Shown: positions 1 to 37,134, counted from the stretch's first letter. The stretch is 39,460 bases of DNA from Bacteroidota bacterium (GCA_027485465.1 JAIXRA010000107.1:1-39460), one strand, 5' to 3'. The notes: generated by a model from the letters alone, not told the origin. A program made the numbers and translations.

Positions 1-1205
1 CGTTGCCATTGGAAAGCCTGCGCATTGGTGGCACTGACGGCAATGCTCACGGGCGTGTTTCGAGGAACCGTCAAACCGGATACGGGCTGAGCCGTTATGG
101 TGGCGGCAGCCTGAATGCTCACCGTTCCAGCAACAAACTGGGTATAAGGAATCACATCGGCATTAAAATCGGCGTATTCACAATTGCCGGCGGTGGCCAA
201 GTCCCAACCAAGGGTCGTCGAAGGAGACGAGGAAGGAGTCCCGGTAATGCGGAATTTAACGCGGAACAGCAAACCGGAGAGGTTCACCGGGTTAAGGTCA
301 AACCAGGCCACCCGAAACTGACGACCCAACCCTGGGAAAATACCGCAATTTGACAAAAACCCGGACGTATTTATGGAAGGATGCACATCGCTCACCATCC
401 CCAGGCATTGCAATTGGGTGCTATCGTAGGTGATGGCCATGGAAATGGCGGCTACGCCGTTCAATTGATCCACCGATACCGGAATGGATACCGTATCCCC
501 CGTACAACCGGCCACCGAACCAATGTTGGTAACAATGGGGGTCACCACTCGAAGGGTCGAGGCATTCGAAAAGAGGGGCGCACCGCAGGCACCGTTCACT
601 TGGACCCGGTACACGGTGTTATCCAAAGCAGAGGTTATTCCCGTCAATTGCAAAGTAGCCGATGTGGCGCCAGCAACCCCGGAACCGTTACTTAGGTTGG
701 TCCAGGCACTGCCGCTTTGGCGTTGCCATTGGTAGGTGGCCGCGTTGGTGGCTACGACCGCAAGGGATACCGAGCCGCCGGCCAGGGCTTGCACCGTGGG
801 ATTGGGTTGCTGGGTGAGGGCCGGAGCAACGGCTGCACCTACACCGCCGTTGGTAAAGGTTACATTGTTAATAACATTCGCCGCAGAATCGGCCAATTCA
901 CAATTACCAGCGTTTTGAAGATCCCAGGAAAGGGTTGAGTTCCCGGTAGCCCGAAAACGCATATTCAACAAAAGCCCGTTCACACTAACAGGTACCAAGT
1001 TGAACCAAGCGACCCGAACCTGTGGCTGCGTTCCCTGGGTCGTTGCATTCACGATAAGGTTGGATCCCAACGCAGGCAGTGCATTGCTAAAACCAACAAA
1101 AGTCAAGGTACCTCCGTTGTAGTTTAGGGACAAGGATATCGCACCCAAATTGTTGGCATTGAGGATGTTAATGGGAACCGAAACGGTGTCACCTCCACAG
1201 GCTTG
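1..1205 (-). repeat. Intragenic repeat, period about 690-720 bp (cohesin-like + Ig-like unit)
   Basis: cgttgccatt occurs at 1-10 and 721-730 (QWQ motif). CGGDTVSVPI (about 1200) and CTGDTVSIPV (about 507) mark successive unit starts; WDL..AGNCE.AD occurs in both. Confidence 0.75.
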
Positions 1206-1331
1206 GACATTGCCGGCTTGGACTTGAATCGTCTGAGCGTTGGCCACCTTGAGGCCACTCGTTGCCGTGATCAAAAACAGAACGAACGCAGCAAAAGCTG
1301 ATGCCGTTGAACGCAAAAGGTTGGTTTTCAT
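1..1331 (-). CDS. Secreted surface protein with alternating cohesin-like and Ig-like repeats (C-terminus truncated at the left window edge)
   Basis: Absent from the ORF track because it is open at the edge. Manual translation from ATG at 1331 gives MKTNLLRSTASAFAAFVLFLITAT (signal peptide), then CGGDTVSVPINILNANNLGAISLSLNYNGGTLTFVGF...RVAWFNLVPVSVNGLLLNMRFRATG, an Ig-like stretch (QQPNPTVQALAGGSVSLAVVATNAATYQWQRQ), then a second CTGDTVSIPVSVDQLNGVAAISMAITYDSTQLQCLGM unit. Frame is open to base 1. Confidence 0.8.
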   Translation of the reverse strand, partial: MKTNLLRSTASAFAAFVLFLITATSGLKVANAQTIQVQAGNVQACGGDTVSVPINILNANNLGAISLSLNYNGGTLTFVGFSNALPALGSNLIVNATTQGTQPQVRVAWFNLVPVSVNGLLLNMRFRATGNSTLSWDLQNAGNCELADSAANVINNVTFTNGGVGAAVAPALTQQPNPTVQALAGGSVSLAVVATNAATYQWQRQSGSAWTNLSNGSGVAGATSATLQLTGITSALDNTVYRVQVNGACGAPLFSNASTLRVVTPIVTNIGSVAGCTGDTVSIPVSVDQLNGVAAISMAITYDSTQLQCLGMVSDVHPSINTSGFLSNCGIFPGLGRQFRVAWFDLNPVNLSGLLFRVKFRITGTPSSSPSTTLGWDLATAGNCEYADFNADVIPYTQFVAGTVSIQAAATITAQPVSGLTVPRNTPVSIAVSATNAQAFQWQ

Positions 1332-1395
1332 AGTTGTTGGTTTGGAGGGGTATCGTAGAGGATAAAAGTCGTGGGGACTATGGGCAAATGAGTGC

Positions 1396-2781
1396 TTAGC
1401 GACGGATTACAAGAGGCCATTGACGGGCAAAATCAGAGGGATTGTTGGTATTTCCAGAACCTGAAACAACCCCTACACGGACCAAGTAACGGCCCTCGGA
1501 CCATTGTTCCACCGGCAATTCAATCCGTGTTTTTCCGGAAGGAAGGCGGTCCCGATCTTGAGACCAAACCAAACGACCCCGGCTATCGTAAACCACCACG
1601 CTCAATTGTTCGACACCTGTAGGAAAATGCAAGTCCAAGGCACTGAAATCCCCTGCAGGATTGGGGTAAAGCCCCGCCTGCCAAGAACCGGAAGCAGGGA
1701 CCACTTTGGGTAGACGCAGATCGGCCATGGGGTAGGCTTCGCCGTCGGGTCCGGCCATTTCGCTCAAATCCCGGGGGACCCAAGGTGCCGCGGAGGAACC
1801 GCGGACCAAGATCTCAAAGAGGGGTTCCCCGGTCACCGGTACAACCCCCTCGACATCGCTCCAACCCAAACGAAATTCACCCCCTTGGCAAGACCAGGAT
1901 AAATCACCCGGAGGCAAGGAAGAACGAACATCGAGGATTTCGAGGCCCGATGGAACGCCCGCCACCACAGACAGGGCCGAAATCGCACCCTCAAAGCCGG
2001 TGGTAACCGGAATCCACGTACCGTTCGATTCCTCGGAAGCCAAACCGTTGTATTCCATCATCAAACGAACAGGCTGGCGCAAATTGGAAGGCACATAACT
2101 AGCATTCACATCCCCGTAGATCAGGCCCTTGAAATCCAGGGTCTGGGTCTGGCCGTTTGCGGTCAAGGTTGGCGCCTCAAAAGCCCAATCCCCCACATTG
2201 AACGAGGTCACAAGATTGGAGAAGCGACGGGTAATGAGGAGGGCATCGTTGGAATTGACCGAATTGGTATTGTTAACATCCCCGGCTTTGAGTCTTATTC
2301 CTACCAGTGGCGCGGTACCCGTAAAAAACTGACGAACTCGTAGGGCATCCGTAGCGTTTACCCCGCCCCAAGGTTTGTTTGATGTCGCCCCAAGAGTGTA
2401 GTTGCCGTCGGGAAACTGACTGATTTCATAGGCACCGCTTGCGTTGGTGGTGGCAGTAGAAACCACGACCGCCAAGTTGTTGACCAAACGCACCTGGCAA
2501 TTGGTCAAAACAGACTGCGCCGTATTGTCGTAACGCAGGACCCCTAAAACTTTGTTATCCTGGTAGGTTTGTTGAATACCCTGACTCAAACGGGCTTGGG
2601 TTCCCGAACCCAGTCCCAGATGGAAAGGCTGACCCAAGGTGAAGGACCATTGAACCCCCGCATTGCTCCAATCCTTGCCCGCCGTGGAGGTCCCGGACTG
2701 AGCAAAAAGCGAACCTGACAGGCCTAAACCAAAAAGCAAGAAGGCAGGCAAATACAAGGCGAATCTTCGGTGGATTTGCAT
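1396..2781 (-). CDS. Secreted dockerin-like protein with carboxypeptidase-regulatory-like domain and T9SS type A C-terminal sorting domain
   Basis: Signal peptide; LGVLRYDNTAQSVLTNCQVRLV...ASGAYEISQFPDGNYTL; paired dockerin-like halves (SNKPWGGVNATDALRVRQFF and GDVNNTNSVNSNDALLITRRF); C-terminal LYPNPAGDFSALDL...VVVYDSRGRLVWSQ...GRYLVRV. Confidence 0.8.
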   Translation of the reverse strand: MQIHRRFALYLPAFLLFGLGLSGSLFAQSGTSTAGKDWSNAGVQWSFTLGQPFHLGLGSGTQARLSQGIQQTYQDNKVLGVLRYDNTAQSVLTNCQVRLVNNLAVVVSTATTNASGAYEISQFPDGNYTLGATSNKPWGGVNATDALRVRQFFTGTAPLVGIRLKAGDVNNTNSVNSNDALLITRRFSNLVTSFNVGDWAFEAPTLTANGQTQTLDFKGLIYGDVNASYVPSNLRQPVRLMMEYNGLASEESNGTWIPVTTGFEGAISALSVVAGVPSGLEILDVRSSLPPGDLSWSCQGGEFRLGWSDVEGVVPVTGEPLFEILVRGSSAAPWVPRDLSEMAGPDGEAYPMADLRLPKVVPASGSWQAGLYPNPAGDFSALDLHFPTGVEQLSVVVYDSRGRLVWSQDRDRLPSGKTRIELPVEQWSEGRYLVRVGVVSGSGNTNNPSDFARQWPLVIRR

Positions 2782-11464: not shown

Positions 11465-13876
11465 TTAATCACCGGCAGGGCCGGTATCGGAAACTTTGGT
11501 TAAACGGGCAAATTTGAGCAATATCTGCTTGGTTCCGTATTGTTCAAAGGTAATGGTCGCCTTGGTATCCGGTAACCTTCCTTCGAGTTTATCAATACGC
11601 CCCTGTCCAAAACGAAAATGATTCACCAAATCGCCCTCCATCAAGGTTGAAGGATCATCCCCCACCCCCGGGTCGGGACCGAGTCCAGGGCCAGGAAGGG
11701 GGGCCGGACGGGATGGTGCCGAAGCTGGACGGGCAGCACCAGAATAGGGACGAGCGGGACCCGACCCCGGACGAGCGGGACCCGACCCCGGACGAACGGG
11801 ACCCGACCCCGGACGAGCGGGACGCGATGCCGATGGGGACGCGCTTCGACTTCCGCCCCAAGGCAACGAAGCAGCGGGTGCCGGAGCCGGTGAAGCCGAG
11901 CGCAACAAAGCCGGCTGAGCCAAAAACGCCTTATCAATCTCGAACAGGAAACGACTGGGCTCTCCGTAACACAAACTACCATGACGAAAGCGGGTCAATG
12001 CATAGCTGAGCACCAAGCGTTTGCGCGCCCGGGTCAAGGCGACATAAAACAAGCGTCGCTCTTCTTCGAGGTCGGCCCGGCTATCCCGAGCCATGGCCGA
12101 TGGGAACAAATCTTCTTCCATCCCAACCACAAAAACTTCCTCAAATTCCAAGCCTTTGGCCTGATGCACGGTCATCAGGCTAACAAAATCACGGTCTTCG
12201 GGATCGTTGTTCTGGTCCATGGAGGTCAGCAACGAGATATGTTGCAAAAAGGCTCCCAGACTGCGATCGTCCCCGGGAATCACTTCGTCCGATTCACAAA
12301 ATTCTTCGATCGCATTGAGTAATTCCTCCACGTTTTGGACGCGGGCCAGTCCCTCTATGCTGGTATCGGCTTTGAGTTCCGTTTGCAGATTGGACTGCTT
12401 CCAAACCAATCGGGCCAAAACAATGGCGTTTTCTTTGCGGGCCGTGACCCCCCAGGATTGAACCGAAAGGGCAAAATCAACCATGCGCTTGCCGGCAGCT
12501 CCCAAGGTGGCCGTGAGCGGATGACCCTGTTCCATCGCGACCAACAGTTCCCATAGGCTCATACCCAGCCGGTCGGCTTCAAGGACCCATTTGTCCATGG
12601 ATGTTTTACCGATCCCACGAGCCGGATAATTGATAACCCGGCGAAGGGCTTCTTCGTCAGCGGTGTTCACCACCAAACGTAGATAGGCTAACAAATCTTT
12701 GACTTCTTTGCGCTGATAAAAACTAACCCCCCCAATCACCCGATACGGAATGTTCTGCCTTCGCAAGGCTTCCTCAAAGGCCCGAGACTGGGCATTGGTG
12801 CGGTACAAAATCGCAAAATCCCGGTTACTCAGTTGAAAACGATGCTTGCGGGCGTGGAGCTCGGCAGCCACTTGTCGTCCTTCTTCGTTATCGCTAACAC
12901 AACGGAAGACCCCAATCAATTCACCCTGGGCGTTCGCGGTCCAAAGGTCTTTGGGAATTTGCTTTTGGTTGCAGGCAATCACCGAACCCGACGCACCAAC
13001 AATGGTCCCCGTGGATCGGTAATTTTGTTCCAGGCGAACCACCTGAACCTCCGGAAAGTCTTGGTGAACATTGAGAATGTTATCGATGACGGCCCCTCGG
13101 AAGGCATAGATACTTTGGGCATCATCGCCTACCAAGCATAGATTGCGATGCACCGCCGATAACAACTTGACAATGCGGTACTGAACCCGGTTGGTGTCCT
13201 GAAACTCATCAACCAAAAGGTGCTTGAATTGCATCTGGTATTGGTGGAGAATATCGGGGTGTTCGTTAAAAAGGCGAAAGGTCTGCAAAAGGAGATCGTC
13301 AAAGTCCATGGCCCCGCTTCGGTGGCAACGCTGAACATAGGCGCGGTAGAGCTCCACAAACCGTGCCCGTCCCGAAGCCCGATCCCCGGCCATCAACCCT
13401 ACGTCGTTTTGGTATTCATCCGGCGTAATCAGTGCATTCTTGGCGGAAGAAATCCGAGCGTACAGGGGAGATGGTTTGTAATAAGCCTCGTCCAGGTTCA
13501 TCTCACGGACCAAGGTTTTGATTAACGATTTGGTATCGTCGGTATCGTAGATACTAAAGTTGGAAGGGTAACCCAAGACTTCGGCGTGCCGACGCAAAAT
13601 GCGAGCAAAGACCGAGTGAAAAGTCCCCATCCACAAGGAACGGGCCGAGGGTCCAATCAAGGCTTCGATTCTTTCGCGCATTTCCCCGGCCGCTTTGTTC
13701 GTAAAAGTCAAGGCCAGCATGCGAAAAGGATCCTCCCCCTGCCGAACCAAATGCGCCATGCGATAGGTTAGAACCCGGGTCTTGCCGGAACCAGCCCCTG
13801 CCACAATCATGACCGGACCTTCCGTGCATTCCACCGCCGACCTCTGCGCCGGGTTGAGTTCGTCCAACCAATTCAC
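11465..13876 (-). CDS. pcrA: UvrD/PcrA-type superfamily 1 ATP-dependent DNA helicase
   Basis: LNPAQRSAVECTEGPVMIVAGAGSGKTRVLTYR, LTFTNKAAGEMRER, LLVDEFQDTN, LCLVGDDAQSIYAFRGA, VSLMTVHQAKGLEFEEVFVVGMEE, LFYVALTRARKRL; C-terminal FRFGQGRIDKLEG. Confidence 0.95.
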   Translation of the reverse strand: MNWLDELNPAQRSAVECTEGPVMIVAGAGSGKTRVLTYRMAHLVRQGEDPFRMLALTFTNKAAGEMRERIEALIGPSARSLWMGTFHSVFARILRRHAEVLGYPSNFSIYDTDDTKSLIKTLVREMNLDEAYYKPSPLYARISSAKNALITPDEYQNDVGLMAGDRASGRARFVELYRAYVQRCHRSGAMDFDDLLLQTFRLFNEHPDILHQYQMQFKHLLVDEFQDTNRVQYRIVKLLSAVHRNLCLVGDDAQSIYAFRGAVIDNILNVHQDFPEVQVVRLEQNYRSTGTIVGASGSVIACNQKQIPKDLWTANAQGELIGVFRCVSDNEEGRQVAAELHARKHRFQLSNRDFAILYRTNAQSRAFEEALRRQNIPYRVIGGVSFYQRKEVKDLLAYLRLVVNTADEEALRRVINYPARGIGKTSMDKWVLEADRLGMSLWELLVAMEQGHPLTATLGAAGKRMVDFALSVQSWGVTARKENAIVLARLVWKQSNLQTELKADTSIEGLARVQNVEELLNAIEEFCESDEVIPGDDRSLGAFLQHISLLTSMDQNNDPEDRDFVSLMTVHQAKGLEFEEVFVVGMEEDLFPSAMARDSRADLEEERRLFYVALTRARKRLVLSYALTRFRHGSLCYGEPSRFLFEIDKAFLAQPALLRSASPAPAPAASLPWGGSRSASPSASRPARPGSGPVRPGSGPARPGSGPARPYSGAARPASAPSRPAPLPGPGLGPDPGVGDDPSTLMEGDLVNHFRFGQGRIDKLEGRLPDTKATITFEQYGTKQILLKFARLTKVSDTGPAGD
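11748..11831. repeat. 21-bp tandem repeat (about 4 copies) in the helicase linker
   Basis: ggacgagcgggacccgacccc at 11748, 11769, 11790 (one SNP) and a degenerate copy at 11811; encodes RPGSGPA/V heptads. Confidence 0.9.
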
Positions 13877-35212: not shown

Positions 35213-35863
35213 ATGACCCGCTGCGAAATTCACCGTTTTACCTTTAATCCCTTTGGCGTTAACACCTACCTGCTTTACAGCTCCGAAGGGGAAGCCCTGA
35301 TCATCGATCCGGGCTGCTCAACACCGCAGGAAGAAGCCATCCTTCGGGATTTTATCCAGGCACGTAAGCTCCAGCCAACCCGGCTGCTGTTGACCCATGC
35401 CCATCTAGACCATGTCCTTGGGAACGCCTGGATTGCTCGCGAATACGGTTTGCAACCCCAAATGCATCGCCTGGATTTGCCCGACCTCGAACGCCTCGTG
35501 GCCTATGCCCCCTTGTTTGGTGTAGAGGCCGAAGCCTCACCGCCCCCCTCCCTTTTCCTGGCCGGAGGGGAGCGCCTGACCTGGTCGGGTCCCACCTTGG
35601 AATTGCTGGAAGCCCCGGGGCATTCCCCCGGGAGCCTGTGTTTTTATATCCCGGACCAAGAGATTCTGGTATCCGGAGATGTCCTCTTTGAACGCAGCAT
35701 CGGGCGCACGGATCTACCAGGCGGACATCATCCAACACTTTTGCAGTCGATCAGAAACGTTTTGTGGGCCCTACCGGATCGCACGGTGGTGTACCCAGGC
35801 CATGGAGCAAGCACCCAAATCGGGATCGAAAAAAGAGAGAACCCCTTTCTAAGAGAGGGTTAG
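35213..35863 (+). CDS. MBL-fold metallo-hydrolase (glyoxalase II-like)
   Basis: NTYLLYSSEGEALIIDPGC, LLTHAHLDHVLGNAWIAREY, LEAPGHSPGSLCFYIPDQEILVSGDVLFERSIGRTDLPGG, VYPGHGASTQIGIEKRENPFL. Confidence 0.95.
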   Translation: MTRCEIHRFTFNPFGVNTYLLYSSEGEALIIDPGCSTPQEEAILRDFIQARKLQPTRLLLTHAHLDHVLGNAWIAREYGLQPQMHRLDLPDLERLVAYAPLFGVEAEASPPPSLFLAGGERLTWSGPTLELLEAPGHSPGSLCFYIPDQEILVSGDVLFERSIGRTDLPGGHHPTLLQSIRNVLWALPDRTVVYPGHGASTQIGIEKRENPFLREG

Positions 35864-37134
35864 TCCGTAATGGCTGGTGATTCGTCGGAGTTTTTGCCCA
35901 AGGAACCCAAATCAAAAAGCAGCGAAAAGCGCAGGGTATTGGCCAACGGATTGGTCTGCAAAGACCCTACTGGAATCAGGTAGGCAAAATTGAGGTTAAA
36001 CACATTGTACTGCAATCCCATCCCGGCGGTGAAATACTGCCGTCCACCCTTGGTGGGATGCTCGTAGAAATACCCACCACGCAATGCAAAAACCTCGTTA
36101 TAAAGGTATTCGATTCCGATTGAGGGATTGATTTCCCTTAGTTCTTCGCGGAATCCATCGGGAGCATCGCCAAAAGAGCCCAGAATCCCTTCCATCACGG
36201 ACTTTTGGTTGGGGTCTTCACCGCGGGCAATCAGGGGCCGACCGTCGACACCCAGCAAAATGCGGTTCGAAGAATCCCGTTGGTAGACCGGGTTGGTCGG
36301 CACCAATAATTTGTTAAGATCAAAGGAAAATGAAACCTTGTTGTACCGATCGATCACCGATGTTAGGGTGGTGCCTAGGCGAAGGTTGGTCGGAATAAAG
36401 CTGGTGTTACCGGATTCGGAATAGGACATCTTGTTACCCATGTTGCTGAGCGAGAGACCCAGGGCCACGTTCCCGTCCCGCCCAAAAAGGCGACGATCGC
36501 GATTGTAATAAAAAGATAAATCACCCGCCACCGATTGCCCGGCCTTGAACTGATTGTTAGGATCAAATCCGGCCGCCAAATTGGAATAAACATATCGCAG
36601 AGCGACCCCAACACTAAAAAAATCACTCAATTTGCGGGCGTAAGCCCCGTCCAGAGAAAATTCATTGGGGTTGAAGGTTCCCAAGGAATTGCCGTTGATG
36701 TCGGTAAAATTGATATCCCCCAACGAAAAATACCGCATGGAGACGCCCACGGTTTGCAAATCATCCAAACGCTTGTAGGCGCTCAAATAGGCCAGCGACA
36801 CGTCAGGGACCAAATTGCGTAGCCAAGGGGTGTAATTCATGGCAATTCCACTGCCTTTGTCTACAAAACAAAGTTTGGCCGCGTTCCAATAAATGGAGTT
36901 GGCGTCGGGACTCGTGGCGGCCCCTACGTCTCCCATGGCCCCGGCCCTTGCGTCCGGTGAAATCATCAAAAAGGGAACGGCCGTTGTGATGGTGTTCAGG
37001 TCTCCCCCTCCTAGCTGGGTTGGGGTGATTTGGGCCTGAAGGGACGTACCAATCCCGCCCAAAAGCAGCGAAGCAAGAACCAAGGTCAAAAAGCCGGTGC
37101 AGCGCAAAAGCCGCGAAGGGGAGTTACAAGGCAT
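35860..37134 (-). CDS. porV: Type IX secretion system outer membrane protein PorV (LptO)
   Basis: AVPFLMISPDARAGAMGDVGAATSPDANSIYWNAAKL, MNYTPWLRNLVPDVSLAYLSAYKRLDD; immediately downstream of porU. Confidence 0.93.
   Translation of the reverse strand: MPCNSPSRLLRCTGFLTLVLASLLLGGIGTSLQAQITPTQLGGGDLNTITTAVPFLMISPDARAGAMGDVGAATSPDANSIYWNAAKLCFVDKGSGIAMNYTPWLRNLVPDVSLAYLSAYKRLDDLQTVGVSMRYFSLGDINFTDINGNSLGTFNPNEFSLDGAYARKLSDFFSVGVALRYVYSNLAAGFDPNNQFKAGQSVAGDLSFYYNRDRRLFGRDGNVALGLSLSNMGNKMSYSESGNTSFIPTNLRLGTTLTSVIDRYNKVSFSFDLNKLLVPTNPVYQRDSSNRILLGVDGRPLIARGEDPNQKSVMEGILGSFGDAPDGFREELREINPSIGIEYLYNEVFALRGGYFYEHPTKGGRQYFTAGMGLQYNVFNLNFAYLIPVGSLQTNPLANTLRFSLLFDLGSLGKNSDESPAITD

Follow-up and report, generated by a model that had tools for sequence, protein, structure and literature searches.

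A divergent cohesin-dockerin gene set with T9SS sorting domains in freshwater Bacteroidota and its possible role in a cellulosome-like assembly

Cohesin-dockerin systems described so far

Cohesins and dockerins are found outside of cellulosomes in all domains of life. In a review published in 2017, the function of these non-cellulosomal modules was described as unknown (PMC5244752). Several described systems can be compared to the gene set that is the subject of this analysis, one of these being the cellulosomes of the Clostridia, with their type I cohesin-dockerin modules. Of the proposed complexes, the closest are the 'planctosome' and that of Ca. Stygibacter, and the closest pair studied by experiment is that of Archaeoglobus. 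Both feature non-catalytic scaffolds with multiple cohesins, enzymes terminating in a dockerin, and anchoring at the cell surface (a prediction in our case), and the cohesin and dockerin domains are homologous. The two differ in the anchor, which is an SLH domain or a sortase-linked one in the Clostridia and a T9SS sorting domain here, and also in that none of the dockerin proteins examined here possess GH5, GH9, or GH48 domains, the first loop of the dockerin is free of calcium ligands, and the anchors combine a dockerin with a cohesin. Another example is the 'planctosome' of freshwater Planctomycetes (PMC6461901), also a system of lake bacteria, for which a peptide-degrading cohesin-dockerin complex has been predicted, with an adaptor possessing both a dockerin and a cohesin; however, it belongs to a different phylum, employs a lamin-tail anchor and peptidases of the M12B and M14 families, and involves no T9SS.

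A third example is presented by Ca. Stygibacter of the Cloacimonadota, for which, in the part of the account considered here (PMC8542988), dockerin-terminal proteases and glycosidases are described along with a cohesin scaffold whose anchor is a T9SS-type C-terminal domain. This organism belongs to a different phylum, and its scaffold is a single giant CBM2/CBM3 protein; neither a CnaB-dockerin-cohesin-CTD block nor a KPWGG loop is mentioned in that part of the account. A fourth example comes from an archaeon, Archaeoglobus fulgidus, whose consecutively numbered, non-cellulosomal ORF2375 (dockerin) and ORF2376 (cohesin) encode domains that bind strongly and specifically (PMC9705933); a cohesin of the same species (PDB 2xdh) is the nearest solved relative of an extra cohesin discussed below. 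This system differs from ours in its archaeal origin, in the lack of a T9SS, and in its function being unknown. As to the Bacteroidota, the openly searchable literature yielded no such arrangement, only scattered reports of dockerins with an undefined role (e.g., PMC7480376).

Compared to the assemblies of cellulose-digesting bacteria, the predicted secretion system is a different one here, and the dockerin is altered. The genes form a coherent, lineage-wide set in lake bacterioplankton with genomes of 1.2-1.9 Mb, where such an outlay is unexpected, and they provide clear and cheap test cases, in the form of a dockerin with one calcium loop and a Trp turn, a pair of adjacent genes, and enzymes free of sorting domains. 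Protein engineering could also draw on them for new cohesin-dockerin pairs that are orthogonal.

Genes A and B and their domains

The window analyzed, of 39,460 nucleotides, is an entire contig (C145) of a Bacteroidota genome of 1.70 Mb (164 contigs, 98% complete) representing a freshwater lake lineage. Two genes, further referred to as A (1396..2781) and B (1..1331), are both located on the minus strand, as are all the features positioned below, and are separated by 64 bp, not the 65 bp given in an initial annotation that was made from the sequence alone. Wherever the locus is intact within the genus, A and B remain neighbors, which is the case in six out of six genomes (G000, G002, G005, G006, G007, and G008). 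The same window encodes two T9SS components, as the initial annotation had stated, PorV (35860..37134; PF19572, E=3.5e-66) and a PorU-like peptidase of the C25 family, the T9SS sortase, open at the contig end (37260..39458; PF01364, E=3.2e-88), and the genome further encodes SprA and 27 sorting domains scoring above the cut-off.

Gene A encodes a protein of 461 aa, for which Pfam and NCBIfam matches and an AlphaFold model (mean pLDDT 85, over 90 for most of residues 75-440, pTM 0.78) give the following order: signal peptide, N-terminal region, CnaB-like domain, dockerin, a beta segment with the pattern GDW...GDVNxSY, a divergent cohesin, and a T9SS sorting domain. The putative signal peptide, read from the sequence, spans residues 1-28 (2698..2781; ...SLFAQ). 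The CnaB/CarboxypepD_reg-like beta domain (residues 76-134; 2380..2556) is fused directly to the dockerin; its Pfam matches are below the cut-off (CarboxypepD_reg, E=6.1e-6; SdrD_B, E=9.6e-5), the model has strands at residues 76-133, and a profile built from the CnaB-dockerin tail matches an SdrD B-domain in the PDB. The C-terminal domain of the T9SS type that had been noted initially is recognized as a type A sorting domain (residues 368-461, LYPNP...; 1399..1680) by both Por_Secre_tail (PF18962, E=2.4e-9, Pfam) and TIGR04183 (E=9.1e-8, NCBIfam), and, with PorU, PorV, and SprA encoded in the genome, the predicted export of A by the T9SS is supported; A would be attached via this domain.

The dockerin of A (residues 134-190; 2212..2382) is a type I dockerin, recognized by Dockerin_1 (PF00404) over residues 139-187 (E=2.8e-7, 31.1 bits versus a cut-off of 22.9). 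In the model it adopts the three-helix F-hand fold (helices 143-153, 161-167, and 177-187, pLDDT >94), and the tail profile matches PDB dockerins 1ohz_B and 2ccl_B, both solved in complex with a cohesin. The initial annotation had read it as two dockerin-like F-hand halves; it is indeed a dockerin, and the second half is canonical, but the first, SNKPWGGVNATDAL, lacks calcium ligands at positions 1, 3, and 5. Its degenerate loop 1, SNKPWGGVNATD (2347..2382), is typical of the 98 dockerins compared, in which D, N, or E is found at these positions in 8, 1, and 0% of the sequences, respectively, position 5 is W in 86, and the consensus reads T-N-K-P-W-G-G-V-N-A-T-D. Loop 2, DVNNTNSVNSND (2245..2280), is a canonical calcium loop, with D at position 1 in 97 of the 98, N or D at position 3 in 97, and D at position 12 in all 98, and the halves are spaced by 34 residues in 95 of 97. 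The two duplicated calcium loops by which PF00404 is defined are thus not both present in A, nor are the loop 1 ligands in more than 90% of the 98 relatives and, as loop 2 is canonical while loop 1 is ligand-free, we classify this dockerin as a divergent, one-loop type. In the dockerins of Clostridium thermocellum, cohesins are contacted by positions 11, 12, 18, and 19 (PMC4728124). Following this numbering, the contact positions are largely retained, with T or S at position 12 of the first half in 92 of 97 sequences and R or K at position 19 in 75 (first half) and 80 (second half) of 97. These features are consistent with a one-calcium dockerin whose first loop would be braced by the Trp turn against the CnaB domain, in a layout comparable to that of the X-module-dockerin dyads. 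The GDW...GDVNxSYxP segment that comes next (2089..2193), at which the enzymes without a C-terminal sorting domain stop, is also conserved, D224 being invariant and G223, S228, and P231 nearly so among 69 relatives.

Past the dockerin of A and ahead of its sorting domain, approximately 125 residues remain without a Pfam match, and the domain located there was overlooked in the initial annotation. By homology and by predicted fold, approximately residues 236-362 (1696..2076) are a cohesin. A profile built from 64 relatives of this region has a single PDB match, the A. fulgidus cohesin 2xdh (E=9.4e-10), hhalign aligns the region with a profile of bona fide cohesins of this family (99% probability, E=5e-18), and Pfam Cohesin, which misses the domain in A itself, recognizes it in only 5 of the 64 (best E=8.4e-11). 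The AlphaFold model has an all-beta domain at residues 240-361, and in Foldseek A matches nearly the whole of 2xdh, at a probability of 1.00, a target-normalized TM of 0.67, and an rmsd of 3.2 A. This cohesin is divergent, and it may not bind.

Gene B, open at the contig end, encodes at least 443 aa, with two copies of Pfam Cohesin (PF00963, E=4.3e-17) above the curated cut-off, cohesin 1 (840..1229, 34.9 bits) and cohesin 2 (120..530, 33.1 bits), and, between these, an Ig-like domain (546..833; phmmer match to PDB 9ncf, whole-sequence E=5.3e-12). With B as the query, phmmer also reaches the PDB cohesins 2xdh and 6kgc, and a profile built from 17 cohesins, taken from B and proteins related to it, matches 16 distinct PDB sequences, every one of them a cohesin or a scaffoldin chain. 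The full-length orthologs, from five related genomes, are approximately 690-700 aa long and consist of a signal peptide, cohesin 1, an Ig-like domain, cohesin 2, another Ig-like domain, a 'YQAVVRN' module, and a short tail; the model of one of these is beta-rich, with good confidence for the cohesins and Ig-like domains and low confidence at the C-terminus, and the cohesin dyad 3l8q is among its Foldseek matches. The alternation of cohesin-like and Ig-like units, as originally described for B, is confirmed, and the cohesin identity is supported by Pfam, by the PDB profile matches, and by the predicted fold. No T9SS sorting domain is recognized in the full-length orthologs scanned, which have no match to Por_Secre_tail, TIGR04183, or TIGR04131, the copy in the window being incomplete. 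A match to a trimeric fiber at the C-terminus of B (NF053851) was too weak to be considered (19.6 bits versus a cut-off of 60), and the whole-chain Foldseek matches of the A and B models, mostly to generic multi-domain beta proteins such as titin and pilins, were set aside, save for the cohesin matches.

Dockerin and cohesin genes in this genome and in related genomes

Further dockerin carriers, raised as a possibility in the initial annotation, bring the genome to a total of 15 dockerin matches, 13 of these above the cut-off, along with 8 cohesin domains encoded by 3 genes, each of which either bears a dockerin or adjoins one. Five of the proteins are dockerin-terminal: an M43 metalloprotease, two subtilases (S8), a GH16 glucanase, and an endonuclease I. 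All five stop at the dockerin/GDVNxSY segment, and none has a match to TIGR04183 or TIGR04131 in searches down to E<=0.1. Another ten possess the CnaB-dockerin-cohesin-sorting domain arrangement, with zero recognized enzyme domains, and these include two starch-type CBM48-repeat proteins, C125 (approximately 2,360 aa, four cohesins) and C87 (two cohesins). Enzymes therefore make up 5/5 of the dockerin-terminal class versus 0/10 of the sorting-domain class (Fisher p=3e-4, this genome), and the length of the tail past the Trp is bimodal, either approximately 99 or 304-337 residues. A general rule that dockerin enzymes never possess a sorting domain is true for this genome but is broken in a representative of a sister genus (G009), in which some of the sorting-domain dockerin proteins are enzymes (S8, M43, esterase, CotH), and thus the split between anchors and enzymes is not strict. 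In G009 and in two more genomes (G003 and G004), the enzymes with a terminal dockerin include an alpha-amylase, a GH18, and an M1 peptidase, as well as more of the S8, M43, GH16, and endonuclease I types. Two features expected of a cellulosome are found, several cohesins per scaffold (four in C125, two each in B and C87) and dockerin-bearing enzymes encoded in the same genome (M43, two S8, GH16, endonuclease I), while GH5, GH9, GH48, and CBM3 are missing from the dockerin and cohesin proteins scanned in this genome, the starch-type CBM48 and CBM20 being present instead.

The nine genomes of the genus encode between 2 and 17 cohesins and between 6 and 20 dockerins each. An alpha-amylase-dockerin gene adjoins a cohesin gene in four genomes representing two genera (G004, G008, G009, and G012), followed, in G009 and G012, by a subtilase-dockerin gene. 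Among 119 genomes, cohesin and dockerin genes are found together in 23 and one without the other in 10 and 13 (p=2e-8), and, outside of the family, co-occurrence is seen in 7 genomes versus approximately 3.3 expected (p=0.02), these p-values ignoring relatedness.

Proposed assembly and alternative explanations

Chance similarity is ruled out by the E-values, the conservation, and the PDB profile matches. The explanation we favor, with somewhat better than even confidence, is that A and B are part of a genome-wide, T9SS-anchored, cellulosome-like cohesin-dockerin assembly on the cell surface, and its role is probably in the breakdown of protein, nucleic acid, and glucans, presumably storage glucans. 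We favor it because the dockerin, the cohesin, and the sorting domain all score above the cut-offs, because the B-type cohesin profile reaches only cohesin and scaffoldin chains while the tail profile reaches dockerins complexed with cohesins, and because the cohesin-contact positions are retained in both dockerin halves. It is further suggested by the genomic context, with each cohesin gene of this multi-gene set bearing or adjoining a dockerin, the association of enzymes with terminal dockerins, the adjacency of A and B in all six intact loci, the alpha-amylase-dockerin genes beside cohesin genes, the co-occurrence of the two gene types, and the presence of a T9SS. The Archaeoglobus ORF2375/ORF2376 binding (PMC9705933) provides an experimental precedent. 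Speaking against it are the loss of the calcium ligands in loop 1, the divergence of the cohesin in A, the lack of a recognized sorting domain in B and in the dockerin-terminal enzymes, and the enzymes of the sister genus that possess both a dockerin and a sorting domain.

In such an assembly, A would act as both an anchor and an adaptor, exported by the T9SS and offering one dockerin and one divergent cohesin, and B, which possesses no sorting domain, would be a non-catalytic adaptor with two cohesins. The dockerin of A would most likely hold one of the cohesins of B, leaving the other free, and the dockerin-terminal enzymes would plug into the free cohesins of B, C125, C87, and possibly of the A-type proteins. 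These enzymes would be the subtilases, the M43 protease, the GH16 glucanase, and the endonuclease I, and, in the relatives, the alpha-amylase, GH18, and M1 peptidase. Binding by the dockerin would involve a single calcium site, with loop 1 replaced by the KPWGG turn packed on the CnaB-like domain. It is also conceivable, albeit quite improbable, that the enzymes and B fold in the periplasm, dock onto the sorting-domain CnaB-dockerin-cohesin proteins, and cross the outer membrane via the T9SS preassembled, in which case a single export signal would serve several cargo proteins.

Among the alternatives, the most probable, though we consider it unlikely, is that the CnaB-dockerin-cohesin-sorting domain proteins form rigid surface stalks, the dockerin and the cohesin packing in cis on each other or on adjacent domains without recruiting other proteins, with the cohesins of B being plain adhesion repeats. 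The constant order of the four domains and their nearly constant spacing (the end lies 304-337 residues past the Trp) would agree with this, as would the divergence of the cohesin in A and the defined relative arrangement of the domains suggested by the pTM of 0.78. However, such stalks leave unexplained the enzymes that stop at the dockerin and possess no divergent cohesin, the multi-cohesin scaffolds, the conserved position of A next to a separate two-cohesin gene, and the alpha-amylase-dockerin genes adjoining cohesin genes. Another proposal, that the CnaB-dockerin-GDVNxSY block is mainly a signal read by the export machinery, its likeness to a cohesin-binding module being inherited and unused, draws on the dockerin-terminal enzymes, which share the GDVNxSYxP end while lacking TIGR04183 and TIGR04131 matches at E<=0.1. 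The same block, however, is also internal to proteins with a normal sorting domain, and conserved cohesin-contact positions would be needless in a mere signal, making this the least probable of the explanations considered.

The initial annotation had proposed an adhesive or scaffold complex, and this is partly supported, by the cohesin and dockerin identities, the T9SS export predicted for A, the conservation of the pair, and the many carriers. A purely adhesive role fits less well than a degradative assembly, as proteases, a GH16 glucanase, and a nuclease are found among the dockerin partners. In its narrower form, of A and B as a dedicated two-protein adhesive complex involving no enzymes, the proposal agrees with the conserved adjacency of the genes and with the Ig-like and adhesin-like parts of B, but we find it very improbable, with at least five dockerin enzymes encoded in the same genome and with dockerin motifs shared among them, which makes an exclusive pairing of A with B unlikely.

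In the class (395 genomes), only the family and a single other genome give strong matches to the tail, and weaker relatives of the full tail are found in several Bacteroidales MAGs. In a related genome (G014), the giant scaffolds measure at least 5,272 aa and at least 5,737 aa and bear numerous cohesins along with a similar tail. The relatives possessing A- and B-type genes are mostly MAGs, and several are lacustrine according to their isolate names (Erken, Lanier, La Plata).

Starch-type modules and amylase neighbourhoods

A neighbourhood comprising a cohesin gene and an alpha-amylase-dockerin gene is conserved in G009, of the sister genus (locus L217, contig C15), in the related genome G012 (L109, C61), and in two relatives possessing dockerin/cohesin genes, G004 (L101, C23) and G008 (L119, C221), with a subtilase-dockerin gene also present at the G009 and G012 loci. 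Repeated starch-type CBM48/CBM20 modules are found on dockerin proteins ending in a T9SS sorting domain, two of them encoded in the genome of the window (L087, contig C146; L093, C52) and one in G009 (L220, C18), suggesting binding of glycogen or starch at the surface.

Dockerin and scaffold architectures

Related genome G014 encodes two giant scaffolds, both open at a contig end, one of at least 5,737 aa (L106, C10) and the other of at least 5,272 aa (L107, C15), with at least 11 and at least 12 cohesins, respectively, among the matches listed, and both carrying a CnaB-like domain fused to a dockerin, as in gene A, close to the C-terminus. Neither cohesins nor dockerins were detected above threshold in G013, of the same family, as would be expected if both are acquired or lost jointly.

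In a putative third dockerin architecture, recognized only by eye in G003 (L208, C69) and G009 (L224, C28; L227, C8; L228, C24), the C-terminal region after the dockerin resembles that of the Fibrobacter major-domain type, with motifs YWWSS, RDNG, and GLSVRC.

Gene B orthologue and helicase gene

The C-terminal part of an orthologue of gene B, the two-cohesin/Ig-like gene adjoining gene A, contains a "YQAVVRN" module and a "CNGVPTWG" tail (L124, 8749-9318), weakly similar, below cut-off, to the mosaic adhesive trimer domain NF053851. The UvrD-like helicase gene of the window (11465-13876, minus strand) encodes a low-complexity PARPGSGP repeat (11641-12009) near the protein's C-terminus.
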